Part shown: positions 37,489 to 42,028 of the stretch, one piece after another
Layout of the letters: the number at the start of each line of letters is the position of its first letter
How positions within the stretch are numbered: position 1 is the stretch's first letter
Source: Pseudanabaena sp. PCC 7367
GTDB taxonomy: Bacteria > Cyanobacteriota > Cyanobacteriia > Pseudanabaenales > Pseudanabaenaceae
Length of the DNA: 64,000 bases
NCBI RefSeq assembly: GCF_000317065.1
Contig: NC_019701.1
Location: 3,110,001 to 3,174,000, forward strand
Direction: 5' to 3'
Made by a program: the position numbers and the translations under genes
The notes under the pieces: generated by a model
The model's database searches: none
The model's input: the letters and a program-made list of their open reading frames with translations, nothing else
What the model was told of the DNA's origin: nothing

Positions 37489-38080
37489 AGGTTGCTCTAA
37501 TTTATTTACAGATCCAGATTTACAGATTTATTTACAGATCCAGATTTAAAGATAGAATCGCTCCAGCTTATGATTGCAAGTTAATCATAACCAATTGCTG
37601 ATCCCGGAAATTCAAAAATTAGTCATTATGTATTTGTTGTAGTAACAATACTCCTACCTCGATCGCTTATGATATTTAGGGCACCTAGGATCAAGCTAGA
37701 GTGAGTTAAACAAATAGCTAATCACTCAGTCTCAATATTCGTTATTATTTGGATTATTTGGCCGCTGATGTAAATACCCTATCTAAATCTAATGGCGGCG
37801 AAGATCGTGATTTACTTGTCCTATACATGAAAACATTAAGCTTTTACATCAAAACATCAGGCTTTTACATCAAAACATCAGGCTTTGGCAAATCTTCTAT
37901 CGCATTTTATGGAAATATCCTTTCTGAGGCCAAATCCACAGCCCTGAATTAGTTGAATTGAGGCGATTGCGAGTTAAAGTTAAATATATTTCAATATTTC
38001 GATTCACAATCGATTAACCAAGTAGCGGTATTCATAGTTAAGCAAATTTAAGTAATTTTAGGTAATTTTAGGTAAGCCAC
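37489..38080. other. repeat-rich spacer
   Basis: No gene accepted. The unit TTTACAGATCCAGATTTA-like occurs at about 37502-37552. A 67-codon frame at 37749-37952 is largely made of the 21-bp repeat listed separately and is treated as spurious. Confidence 0.5.
37830..37886. repeat. 21-bp tandem repeat, 2.7 copies
   Basis: Units at 37830-37850, 37851-37871 and 37872-37886 (AAAACATCAGGCTTTTACATC, the first copy differing at two bases). Confidence 0.85.
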
Positions 38081-38749
38081 ATGGAGCTACAAGCATCTAA
38101 AGGGGTACAAGAACTAATCGATCGCCTCAAAAGCGAGGGGATTAAGTCTGGTGAGGATCAAGCACAAAAGATTACTGATCAAGCTCACCAAAAAGCACGT
38201 CAAATCATTGCCGACGCTAAGCGAGAAGCTGAGTCAATTCGCAAAGAGGCCAGAGAAGACGCAAAACGTACCCAATCATCTTCAGAAGAAGCAATCCGGA
38301 TCGCTGCCAGGGATGCCCTGCTTGCTTTGAAGAGTAAAATGGCGCAGTATTTCAGCCAGAGACTCTATGAGCGCGTGGCTGTAGAATTTAACAACCGCGA
38401 TTTCTTGCGCCAACTGCTGCTAGAGGTTTGTCGCCGCAAAGTACCAGAGCTGGCTCCAGAGCAAAAAGTAACGATCCTGTTGCCCGAGAAGCTATTGAGT
38501 GTGGAAGATCTCAAGTCTAATTCTGTCAATATTGAAGATGACCCGATGGCTCAGTTCATCATCTCGGTAGCACAAGACTTCTTGGAAAAGGGGGTTGATT
38601 TTGATACCAGCCCCAATTATGAATCGATTAAGGTGCGCCTGGAAGGTCAAGAGGTGTTAGTAGATTTGAGTGACAACAGCGCTGCTGGCATGTTAATGCA
38701 ATATTTGCTGCCCCGCTTCAGAGCGATTGTAGAGGGCTATTTTCAATAA
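38081..38749 (+). CDS. V/A-type ATPase subunit E-like protein
   Basis: 222 aa. The N-terminal 85 residues (GVQELIDRLKSEGIKSGEDQ, then a long Ala/Glu/Lys heptad coiled coil) followed by a globular C-terminal region (YERVAVEFNNRDFLRQLLLE, then VDLSDNSAAGMLMQYLLPR) have the architecture and motif pattern of V/A-ATPase peripheral-stalk subunit E. The relatives FliH and the F-ATPase delta/b subunits are less likely, because no flagellar or F-ATPase genes are near. The next gene encodes a DUF2764 protein, its usual neighbour in Bacteroidetes/Chlamydiae-type V-ATPase operons, but subunits A, B, D, I and K are absent here. Confidence 0.7.
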   Translation: MELQASKGVQELIDRLKSEGIKSGEDQAQKITDQAHQKARQIIADAKREAESIRKEAREDAKRTQSSSEEAIRIAARDALLALKSKMAQYFSQRLYERVAVEFNNRDFLRQLLLEVCRRKVPELAPEQKVTILLPEKLLSVEDLKSNSVNIEDDPMAQFIISVAQDFLEKGVDFDTSPNYESIKVRLEGQEVLVDLSDNSAAGMLMQYLLPRFRAIVEGYFQ

Positions 38750-38756
38750 TTAGTAA

Positions 38757-38916
38757 TAAAATAATTAGTAATAATTAGTAATAATTAGTTTGAAGATTGA
38801 AAGTAACTCAGTCTCTATCACTAATGCTAATTAGGATGATTTAAGTAATTATTGAAGTGAAACAATTGCCGCACAGCCAACGATTTGGTAGACCGATTTG
38901 GTAGACCGATTTGGTA
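38757..38916. repeat. tandem repeats between the V-ATPase-like genes
   Basis: TAATTAGTAATAA-type units fill about 38748-38790, and the 13-bp unit CGATTTGGTAGAC occurs 2.7 times at 38881-38916, just before the DUF2764 gene. Confidence 0.8.
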
Positions 38917-38953
38917 ATTGGTATGTTGACTAGAGGATGAGCAGGAGTTTAAA

Positions 38954-39619
38954 TTGAGCGATCGCTACTATGGACTGGCCTCCAGTTTGCCCCATTTAAA
39001 AGTGGCAGACGATGGCTACTTTCAGATCCAACATTTGCCGATTAGTTATGAGACCTTAACCAAGCGATTGAATTCGCTTGAGCTAGAGGACTACGAACAA
39101 ATCAAAGCAATTGCCGAATATTTCCGTGCCCTTGATGCGGTGATGAACCTGACCAACCAGCAGGTTTGCGACATTATGGCCAAAACGGCGGCAAAATTAT
39201 CACATCCTGGGGTCAAGAAATTATTCACCGATATCTGTGAAGTTTGGATTGTGTTCAAGGCGCTACGGCAAAGACATTATGGTCGCAACTCAACTGAACT
39301 ACCCTCAGTGATCCTGCTTTCTAATCATATTCGCCGCAATTGGAATCATCCTGATTTTTCATTGGCGGGAAAATTCCCCTGGATTCCCAGAGCCAAGGAT
39401 TTGCTGGAAAAGGCTCAGTTTATGGAACTAGAACAACTATCCGATCAGATTATGTGGCGCATTGCTGAGCAAGCTAGCGTAATGGATCCATTTGGTTTCA
39501 ATTTTCTGTTTGCCTATGCGATCAAGTGGTCAATTCTGGATCAGTGGCGCAACATCGATCGAGAAGCTGGTAAGGCTCGCTTCAATCAACTGGTTGATGA
39601 TGTGTTGTCTGGGGTTTGA
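38954..39619 (+). CDS. DUF2764 protein, V-ATPase operon partner (possible subunit C-like)
   Basis: 221 aa. The TTG at 38954 is chosen as start because AGGAG lies 7 nt upstream and the N-terminus SDRYYGLASSLPHL matches the family start (Y-Y-x-LASSLP). Further family-like blocks are AIAEYFRALDAVMNL, ICEVWIVFKALRQRHYGRN and the C-terminal FAYAIKWSILDQWRNID. In Chlamydiae and Bacteroidetes this gene lies between V-ATPase subunits E and A and is thought to take the role of subunit C. The link to V-ATPase here rests on these patterns and on the neighbouring subunit-E-like gene. Confidence 0.68.
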   Translation: MSDRYYGLASSLPHLKVADDGYFQIQHLPISYETLTKRLNSLELEDYEQIKAIAEYFRALDAVMNLTNQQVCDIMAKTAAKLSHPGVKKLFTDICEVWIVFKALRQRHYGRNSTELPSVILLSNHIRRNWNHPDFSLAGKFPWIPRAKDLLEKAQFMELEQLSDQIMWRIAEQASVMDPFGFNFLFAYAIKWSILDQWRNIDREAGKARFNQLVDDVLSGV

Positions 39620-40390
39620 GGTCAGGGTTCAAACCTAAACTAAAACCTAGGTGTTATATCCTGGGCAAATATTAATAAGATATTAATTAAGATAAAAAGT
39701 GCGCCGAGAGACGAGAGAGGCGATCGCTAACGATCAATTGGCCTCGTTCTGGGGCGATCGCGCTATTTTTTAATCTATTTATTATCCTGATGTGCTGGGC
39801 ATTTAAACGCAACAAATCTGATGCCTTAGATCTGATGCCCCAGACCTACCACCATAATTTTAAGATTTAATTAGCCACAGCGATCGAACTAGTGCTTTGT
39901 CAAGATCGCCATAATTGATTAGCTTTGTCTCAACCCGCTGACGATAGATAGATAGTAGGCAAACTATTCAATCTATTACTGCTCATCTCTAATTTTCACA
40001 GAGTAGACAGAGTAGTAGGACAGAGTAGTAGGTAGGATAGGTGTGCTAGCAGTTAGGGGAAAACCCACGGATTAAATAAACAAGATTGGCAATTTCAAAT
40101 TCCAGGAACTGCATCTTAAATTCAAAAATTTAGATTTCATGCCTTAAAATCGCAGCCAAAGCTTGAAATCTGTTAACTAGATAACCTAAACTTAACCCGT
40201 TTTTGCAATCCGCACCTTCCAAAAGCATTTACAAGCGGTGGGAATAGGTTAAAATTAGAGCGTAGATGAATGATTTTAAGTGTCTTCGTAAAAACCATAC
40301 CTAAGAAGGGCTTTTTCTATTCGATGTCATGTGTAAGAATAGGGCGGCACACTGTAAACTCATTTCATTTTGAGGTGTGAGGAAATTAAA
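39620..40390. other. long spacer upstream of the porin gene
   Basis: Begins with a HIP1-based terminator (39720-39771), then A/T-rich sequence. GACAGAGTAGTAG is duplicated at 40006-40031. A leader with AAGAAGGGCTTTTTCT lies about 70-90 nt before the porin start. No gene or known riboswitch recognised. The V-ATPase A and B genes expected after DUF2764 are not here even as remnants that I can see. Confidence 0.5.
39720..39771 (+). terminator. terminator from two HIP1 octamers
   Basis: GCGATCGC at 39720-39727 can pair with GCGATCGC at 39754-39761 around a 26-nt loop. TTTTTT follows at 39766-39771. It would end the V-ATPase-like transcript. Confidence 0.55.
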
Positions 40391-42028
40391 ATGTCTAAGC
40401 TATTGAACAAATTAACTGCTGGTTCCTTGCTAGTAGCTGCCGCTCTGACTGCTCAGAGTGCTAAAGCTGCCGAGCTAGAAACCGAGCTTGAAGTAAATCA
40501 ATCCGCTCCCCAATTGCTAGCCCAAAACTATGATGCTAGCGTGCTCGATTCGATCAGCAGAGATGCATTGGTTCCTGCCGCCACGCAAACGGCTCAGGTT
40601 ACTTCTGTATCTCAGTTAACCGACGTGCAACCCACTGACTGGGCATTCACCGCCTTGCAATCACTAGTAGAGCGCTACGGTTGTATTGCTGGTTATCCCG
40701 ATCGTACCTATCGTGGCCAACGCGCTATGACCAGGTATGAATTTGCCGCTGGTTTGAATGCTTGTTTGGACAAAATCAACGAAATCATTTCGTCCGGTTT
40801 GGCCGACAAAGTCAGCAAAGAAGATTTAGCTGCATTACAAAGACTACAAGAAGAGTTTGCCGCTGAGCTAGCTGCCCTGCGTGGTCGGGTTGATGCCCTA
40901 GAAGCAAAAACCGCTCAACTAGAAGCACAGCAATTCTCCACCACCACCAAATTGGCAGGTCGTGCCATCTTGGCTCTCTCTGGTGCCGCTGGTGCTGATG
41001 ATTTGGCTGACACCAATGTTACCTTCAGCGGTCGGGTTCGTTTGAACTTCAATACCAGTTTTACTGGGAGAGATCGTTTGACCACCAGACTTCAAGCTGG
41101 TAATGTTACCCGTTTTAACCAAGCCACTGATATGACCAGACTTGGTTTTGACACCAACACTGGTAACACCTTTGAGCTGGATAACCTCTGGTACCGCTTC
41201 CCCGTTGGTGAGCGAATTACGGCTTACTTTGGTATTGGTCTGGATTCTGATGACGTATTTGGCGTTTTGAACCCATTCTTGGCCAGCTCTGACAGTGGTG
41301 CAATCTCCCGCTTTGGCCGCAGAGACCCATTCATGTTCCGTGCTCCTGAAGGTGCTGGTGCTGGTGTTAACTTCCAGATTAACGAAAAATTTGCGATCAA
41401 CGCATTCTACCTTGGTGACAAGGATGAAAGTGCTGATCCTGAAGCTGGTATCACTGGTGGTTCCTACGGTGCTGGGGTGCAATTGCTATTTGAACCTAAT
41501 GACAAGTTGCAATTGGCATTGGCTTACAAGCATGCCTATGAAAGCGAAGGCAATGTTAACCTGACTTCTTCGACTGGTAGTGAGTTCTCTCAAGATCCAT
41601 TCGGCGATCGCCCTACTGAGTCCGATCGTTATGCGTTCTACATGAACTGGCGCGTCAGCCAAGGCTTCAACTTTGGCGGTTGGGTATCCTTCATCAGCGC
41701 TAACACTGCAGGTAGCACCCTTAATGGTAGTGCTGACTTGATTAACTGGATGGCTCACTTCTCCTTCCCCGATCTATTCATGGAAGGTAGCACTGGTGCG
41801 ATCCTGTTTGGTCAACCACCTCGCGTAACTAGTTTCAGCGGTCCTGCGGTAACCCCTAACGAAGGCACCGATGATGATACTTCCTACCATTTGGAAGCTC
41901 TATATCGCTGGAAGCTCTCCAAGCACATCTCGATCACTCCTGGTGTATTGGTGATCTTCAATCCGCAGCATAACGAAGAACGCAGCACAGCATATGTGGG
42001 TACGATCAGAACTACTTTCTCGTTCTAA
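40391..42028 (+). CDS. SLH-domain OprB-type outer-membrane porin
   Basis: 545 aa from the ATG at 40391, preceded by GAGG at about 8 nt; the in-frame TTG at 40370 lacks this. The signal peptide is MSKLLNKLTAGSLLVAAALT, ending near AKA. An SLH domain follows (about residues 75-135, from VQPTDWAFTALQSLV to GYPDRTYRGQRAMTRYE), binding the peptidoglycan-linked polysaccharide. A coiled coil comes next and then a beta-barrel ending in aromatic residues (RTTFSF). Such proteins (SomA, iron-uptake porins) are the dominant outer-membrane channels of cyanobacteria. It is expected to be highly expressed, and a strong terminator follows. Confidence 0.94.
   Translation: MSKLLNKLTAGSLLVAAALTAQSAKAAELETELEVNQSAPQLLAQNYDASVLDSISRDALVPAATQTAQVTSVSQLTDVQPTDWAFTALQSLVERYGCIAGYPDRTYRGQRAMTRYEFAAGLNACLDKINEIISSGLADKVSKEDLAALQRLQEEFAAELAALRGRVDALEAKTAQLEAQQFSTTTKLAGRAILALSGAAGADDLADTNVTFSGRVRLNFNTSFTGRDRLTTRLQAGNVTRFNQATDMTRLGFDTNTGNTFELDNLWYRFPVGERITAYFGIGLDSDDVFGVLNPFLASSDSGAISRFGRRDPFMFRAPEGAGAGVNFQINEKFAINAFYLGDKDESADPEAGITGGSYGAGVQLLFEPNDKLQLALAYKHAYESEGNVNLTSSTGSEFSQDPFGDRPTESDRYAFYMNWRVSQGFNFGGWVSFISANTAGSTLNGSADLINWMAHFSFPDLFMEGSTGAILFGQPPRVTSFSGPAVTPNEGTDDDTSYHLEALYRWKLSKHISITPGVLVIFNPQHNEERSTAYVGTIRTTFSF

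Follow-up and report, generated by a model that had tools for sequence, protein, structure and literature searches.

The window, i.e., the whole 64,000-nt stretch of DNA analysed here, covers C2:3110001-3174000 of the Pseudanabaena sp. PCC 7367 genome, which comprises 4,885,680 bases in two contigs. The locus of interest consists of two ORFs on the plus strand. The first (38081-38749, 222 aa) encodes subunit E, a peripheral-stalk component, of a V-type ATPase, and the second (38954-39619, 221 aa, with a TTG start as called) encodes a DUF2764 protein that is predicted to be a short form of V-type ATPase subunit C/d, the central-stalk socket. The two are separated by 204 nt on the plus strand (38750-38953), as against a median of 12 nt and a maximum of 285 nt at 75 other loci, and the 15-nt repeat AATAATTAGTAATAA occurs there three times (38745-38784). 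Short direct repeats of 26, 21 and 15 nt are found in the intergenic DNA around and inside the locus, at 37500-37551, 37824-37886 and 38745-38784. A methyltransferase gene lies on one side of the pair and an OprB-family porin gene (40370-42028), the next after DUF2764, on the other, and there is no other V-ATPase gene at the locus. The first-pass annotation had called both ORFs at this position, as a subunit-E-like protein and a DUF2764 protein followed by a porin, and all of these calls hold. Elsewhere in the window, a SnoaL-like protein (1467-1964; E = 0.00024, below cut-off) comes after a single-domain orange-carotenoid N-terminal protein (811-1314; PF09150, E = 3.1e-64); we take these to be, perhaps, separate homologues of the helical and C-terminal parts of a carotenoid protein.

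The assignment of the first ORF rests on a profile and on a predicted fold. Residues 9-217, nearly the full length, match the NCBIfam V-type subunit E model PRK01558 (E = 4e-25, 88.6 bits), with a score that does not reach the curated cut-off of 241. The AlphaFold model (mean pLDDT 85.3) has V-ATPase subunit E structures as its best Foldseek matches (4efa_E, E = 3.5e-4, probability 1.00). The Pfam V-ATPase E model PF01991, which the first-pass annotation had proposed as the check, gives no match to this ORF at E ≤ 10, nor any match in a search of the entire genome; it is misleading in this case, since it misses a subunit E that PRK01558 and the fold both identify. The profile check proposed for the second ORF gave a match to PF10962 (E = 1.6e-13) of 51.4 bits, the cut-off being 24.1, and confined to C-terminal residues 93-218.

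What DUF2764 does is suggested by its predicted structure. An AlphaFold model built from 67 aligned rows, out of 77 available, has a mean pLDDT of 90.2 and a pTM of 0.84. Its Foldseek matches are weak (best E = 0.51), and include Thermus subunit C (1v9m, probability 0.54, E = 0.59). When the 1000 best chains were run through VIA-align, 12 chains reached Z ≥ 5, and 12 out of 12 are V-ATPase subunit C/d from Thermus, yeast, cow or man, with Z of 9.6-12.2 and rmsd of 4.5-5.6 over 174-207 aligned residues. Helical proteins can score Z of about 13 in this program through common arrangement alone, and what counts here is that the C/d family stands clear of others, the next row having a Z of 4.8. The assignment of the predicted fold thus rests on VIA-align, Foldseek alone being insufficient. 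Sequence comparison gave no such link: hmmscan found no match of the ORF to AC39 (PF01992) at E ≤ 10, and a profile of the 67 DUF2764 rows found no PDB chain at E ≤ 10. The protein has 221 aa compared with about 320 for C/d, and so we describe it as a predicted short subunit C/d.

The first-pass annotation had taken subunits A, B, D, I and K to be missing, but all five are present, intact, elsewhere on the same chromosome, outside the window, and all match V-type models. Subunit A (C2:3277740-3279524, minus strand, 594 aa) contains the V-type A extension domain (PF16886, 2.4e-28) and scores 773 bits with NCBIfam PRK04192 (cut-off 470), while subunit B (C2:1443674-1445071, minus strand, 465 aa) scores 706 bits with PRK02118 (cut-off 431). 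Subunit D (C2:67390-67995, minus strand, 201 aa) was found by a genome-wide family search with PF01813 (1.2e-38) and scores 200 bits with PRK02195 (cut-off 189). Subunit I (C2:2102923-2104770, plus strand, 615 aa) matches Pfam PF01496 above cut-off on the whole protein (1.8e-14) and does not reach its NCBIfam cut-off. Directly after it lies the gene for subunit K (C2:2104998-2105465, plus strand, 155 aa), which scores 156 bits with PRK09621 (cut-off 108), and in which two PF00137 matches fall within one protein, a two-hairpin form. The seven genes thus occupy five loci on C2, at about 67 kb, 1.44, 2.10, 3.15 and 3.28 Mb; A, B and D are each solitary, I adjoins K, and E adjoins DUF2764. By eye, the neighbours of the I-K pair are presumably rimO on one side and an sbcD-like gene on the other. 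The D (0.444) and DUF2764 (0.453) genes have a lower GC content than 17 genes from the window, for which the mean is 0.500 and the standard deviation 0.020.

The search for catalytic subunits that the first-pass annotation had proposed was thus fruitful: it turned up A at 3.28 Mb and B at 1.44 Mb in addition to the alpha and beta genes of the F-type enzyme. These four are the only PF00006 genes in the genome at E ≤ 0.001, and there is no additional F-type alpha/beta pair among them, by which an N-ATPase or second F-type ATPase is rejected. The catalytic residues are kept (Walker A, GER and ADSTSR in A; SLSRL in B), as is the ion-path Arg520 of subunit I, within the stretch SYLRLFALG. On these family assignments, the five loci together encode a predicted V-type ATPase with seven subunits, of the kind known from Chlamydia, Borrelia and Bacteroides, in a genome that also has an F-type synthase; E and DUF2764 are very probably two of the seven genes of this one complete, dispersed enzyme. 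Two further features were seen near ATPase genes: close to subunit A, a small lipoprotein-like ORF that consists of a DPCAA(E/K) repeat (L012:8783-9214), and, downstream of F-type alpha, an ORF pair that looks IS21-like by eye, after an sppA-like gene (L015:10949-13202).

The same kind of set of seven proteins (E, DUF2764 or an ORF of no named family, A, B, D, I and K) makes up the V-type ATPases of Borrelia, Chlamydia, Kuenenia and Bacteroides; in those organisms it is encoded by a single operon, in contrast to the five chromosomal loci here. We assume that the DUF2764 gene is present in the Borrelia and Chlamydia clusters. A further difference is that DUF2764 here receives a predicted fold, that of a short subunit C/d. 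The parts of PMC2936114 that concern the Borrelia, Kuenenia and chlamydial V-ATPase clusters describe them as without homologues of C, F and G. For the Bacteroides operon, the relevant part of a 2023 paper (PMC10790697) annotates DUF2764 by family, with no assigned function, and reports Na+ residues in K.

Within the cyanobacterial class, PF16886 is found above cut-off in 11 of 388 genomes, our own counted, and in 13 at E ≤ 0.001; tblastn with the seven proteins gave no match in the two weak genomes (L040, L041). In the family of Pseudanabaena sp. PCC 7367, this genome is the one positive among 38, the domain being absent from the other 37. Eight of the ten other positive cyanobacteria carry all seven genes within 16 kb, and the remaining two are represented by contigs of 4.1 and 3.6 kb, with five and four of the seven genes. 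Two gene orders occur. The first, E-DUF2764-A-B-D-I-K, is that of L035 and of Nodosilinea nodulosa PCC 7104 (L042), and, with K inverted next door, of the draft genome G007 (L039). In the Nodosilinea cluster (L042 8394-16302), there is no further non-overlapping gene-sized ORF between the seven on that strand. The second order, B-D-I-K-E-DUF2764-A, is that of Synechococcus sp. WH 5701, whose locus (L080) likewise holds all seven genes and differs from ours in being clustered and in belonging to the type 2 lineage.

A wider contig scan confirmed 428 relatives, of which the best 80 were kept as named loci. Among these best 80 of 428, the DUF2764 gene lies beside A in 76, in many phyla, and the seven genes are together in 49 of the 50 loci with at least 8 kb either side of A, and in 21 of the 30 with less than 8 kb of flank. 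The sole exception among the 50 is a Gemmatimonadota metagenome bin (MAG bin1440, CP070792.1; L058/L126), which resembles our genome in being split: A lies at about 817 kb and has none of the other subunits within 10 kb of it, and B-D-I-K lies at 2.15 Mb, 1.3 Mb from A. It differs in that it has at least two pieces, compared with five here, and E and DUF2764 were not located. Dispersal is therefore rare and not unique, and five pieces are the extreme among the loci examined. A Methyloprofundus contig (L092) carries a V-type A gene with 4.9 kb of upstream sequence and no E or DUF2764 there, and is perhaps another split case.

The seven genes share a history. In quick trees of each subunit, the gene from Pseudanabaena sp. 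PCC 7367 groups with those of Nodosilinea PCC 7104 and G007, its closest relatives: the three form one clade with support 100 in the A tree (84 rows), and group with support 98-100 in the trees of B (70 rows), D (75), I (75), K (77) and DUF2764 (80), in the last of which ours joins the type-1 rows with support 99. In the E tree (77 rows) it groups with Nodosilinea (support 97); G007 is absent from this tree, its E being frameshifted in the draft. As all seven dispersed genes group with their counterparts in the Nodosilinea cluster, they would derive from one operon that was later dismantled without loss. The next neighbours are planctomycetes or Nitrospirota in five of the six non-A trees and Endozoicomonas in the K tree. 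The remaining cyanobacteria occupy another part of the A tree, and a single clade of all 21 cyanobacterial A rows, i.e., one origin, is rejected for subunit A in an AU test chosen after the tree was seen (p-AU 1.6e-7). Cyanobacteria have thus probably acquired this enzyme at least twice.

Amino-acid identity to Nodosilinea is 0.75 for B, 0.68 for A, 0.59 for D and K, 0.43 for I and E, and 0.40 for DUF2764, and identity at fourfold sites is 0.32-0.49 across the seven genes. The far divergence of I, E and DUF2764 (40-43% identity), together with the scores of I and E below NCBIfam cut-offs, counts against the case, as does the lower GC of D and DUF2764. None of the seven genes contains an inner stop, and first and second codon positions are better kept than fourfold sites. 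As judged from these codon comparisons, the seven genes are under purifying selection and not decaying.

The sites now occupied give some indication of how the dispersal came about. The D gene lies exactly between two genes that we take, by eye, to be prmA and uvrA, and in G088, a genome of the same family without a V-type A domain, the matches to these two genes are 18 nt apart. The order purN-h128-prmA-uvrA (purN presumed in the same way; h128, a 128-aa ORF) is the same in both genomes, and so it seems that D was inserted, as a lone V-ATPase gene, into the prmA-uvrA junction of the host. For the E + DUF2764 pair, the porin gene of G088 adjoins hisA, with ndhD 10 kb away and no E or DUF2764 there, and no more than 15 kb separates uppP-ndhD from porin-hisA; this order differs from our own, and does not constitute a clean empty site. 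Junctions matching the A, B and I-K sites were not found in the 1.6 Mb read of the 4.58-Mb contig C5 of G088. Around the five units there are short repeats only, and neither IS scars nor long terminal repeats were found. In the 250-nt stretches upstream of the units, no shared motif was found, the best 10-mer occurring in three of five and 25 sets of controls reaching three or four. The F-type gamma gene is also apart from alpha, both in this genome (C2:1994677-1995612; L129:5669-6619) and in six of six family relatives tested (L130-L135), and thus the dismantling of ATPase operons in this family seems to predate the V-ATPase case.

The history that we propose is that a foreign operon, whose nearest non-cyanobacterial kin are from planctomycetes and Desulfobulbaceae, entered the lineage, and that its genes were then relocated, one or two at a time, to intergenic positions of the host chromosome, with selection keeping them all. 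In the assembled enzyme, A3B3 would hydrolyse ATP and D would serve as the axle, as their families suggest. DUF2764 would be the socket that links the axle with the K ring, in the role of subunit C/d. E would form the peripheral stalk or stalks, holding A3B3 to subunit I, and I and the K ring would move the ion.

Which ion this would be can be approached through the ring protein. Among PDB sequences, K has a single match at E ≤ 0.001, which is Enterococcus hirae NtpK (3.1e-10). The E. hirae V-ATPase is encoded by an operon with further subunits, in contrast to the set of seven here, and the likeness lies in a ring protein with matching Na+ ligands. Residues S60, Q61, Q102 and E131 of our K occupy the positions of E. 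hirae Thr64, Gln65, Gln110 and Glu139, the Na+ ligands as they are named in PMC2359735, and M57 occupies the place of the backbone ligand. Across 77 K rows, the Gln65 position is Q in 50, but it is H in both type-1 relatives, Nodosilinea and G007. As these are the closest, common descent does not vouch for the use of Na+. Those two histidines lend some weight to the alternative that the same dispersed complex moves H+ and not Na+, e.g., for compartment acidification or the buffering of membrane potential, and so does the fact that the Na+ ligand set is a reading of the sequence. The ligands kept in our own K argue against this, and we regard H+ transport as rather unlikely. On balance we lean towards a Na+-translocating ATPase, which would spend ATP on exporting Na+, alongside an F-type synthase that works with H+.

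The first-pass annotation had seen in E and DUF2764 an orphan pair, for which it offered a broken transferred operon, a split one or a repurposed scaffold. Of these, the split operon has turned out to be the apt description, with seven genes across five chromosomal loci; the orphan, the broken operon and the scaffold were rejected once A, B, D, I and K had been found. A decaying remnant of a transferred operon, with no working enzyme, would account for the five pieces and for the low conservation of E, DUF2764 and I, but with seven of seven genes intact, their reading frames constrained as described above, and the catalytic and ion-path residues in place, it is very unlikely. It is extremely improbable that E and DUF2764 form a scaffold independent of any V-ATPase: the pair does stand by itself between a methyltransferase and a porin, but the genome has all of the remaining subunits, the pair belongs to the seven-gene cluster in relatives, and both proteins have the predicted folds of V-ATPase subunits. 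That the dispersal is an artefact of assembly is hardly credible, given that the assembly has two contigs, 100% completeness and 0.08% contamination, that each piece lies among other chromosomal genes, and that the D site matches the prmA-uvrA junction of a relative on both sides.

The preferred reading, then, is of a dispersed V-type ATPase that is complete. Assembly and the balance of subunits are often invoked to explain why large complexes are encoded by operons. This rationale would be put to a natural test by a rotary ATPase whose genes, once a single transferred operon, now lie at five loci with no part lost. With five loci and no shared promoter motif seen, the balance of subunits would have to be set in some other way. 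We think it reasonably probable that both parts of this reading are correct, namely that a V-ATPase works here without an operon for the whole enzyme, from five places and under another control of subunit balance, and that DUF2764 is the 'missing' C/d. The presence of a V-ATPase in a cyanobacterium is already known, as Table 1 of PMC2359735 (2008) gives Synechococcus sp. WH 5701 as having both F- and V-type ATPases. Our literature search found no published description of V-ATPase gene dispersal or of the role of DUF2764. The DUF2764 assignment has the wider relevance, in that the gene is common beside A across phyla, in enzymes that PMC2936114, where it treats such clusters, describes as without C. 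If the assignment is true, a short C/d would give these enzymes the usual coupling of axle to ring, which amounts to a clear structural prediction.
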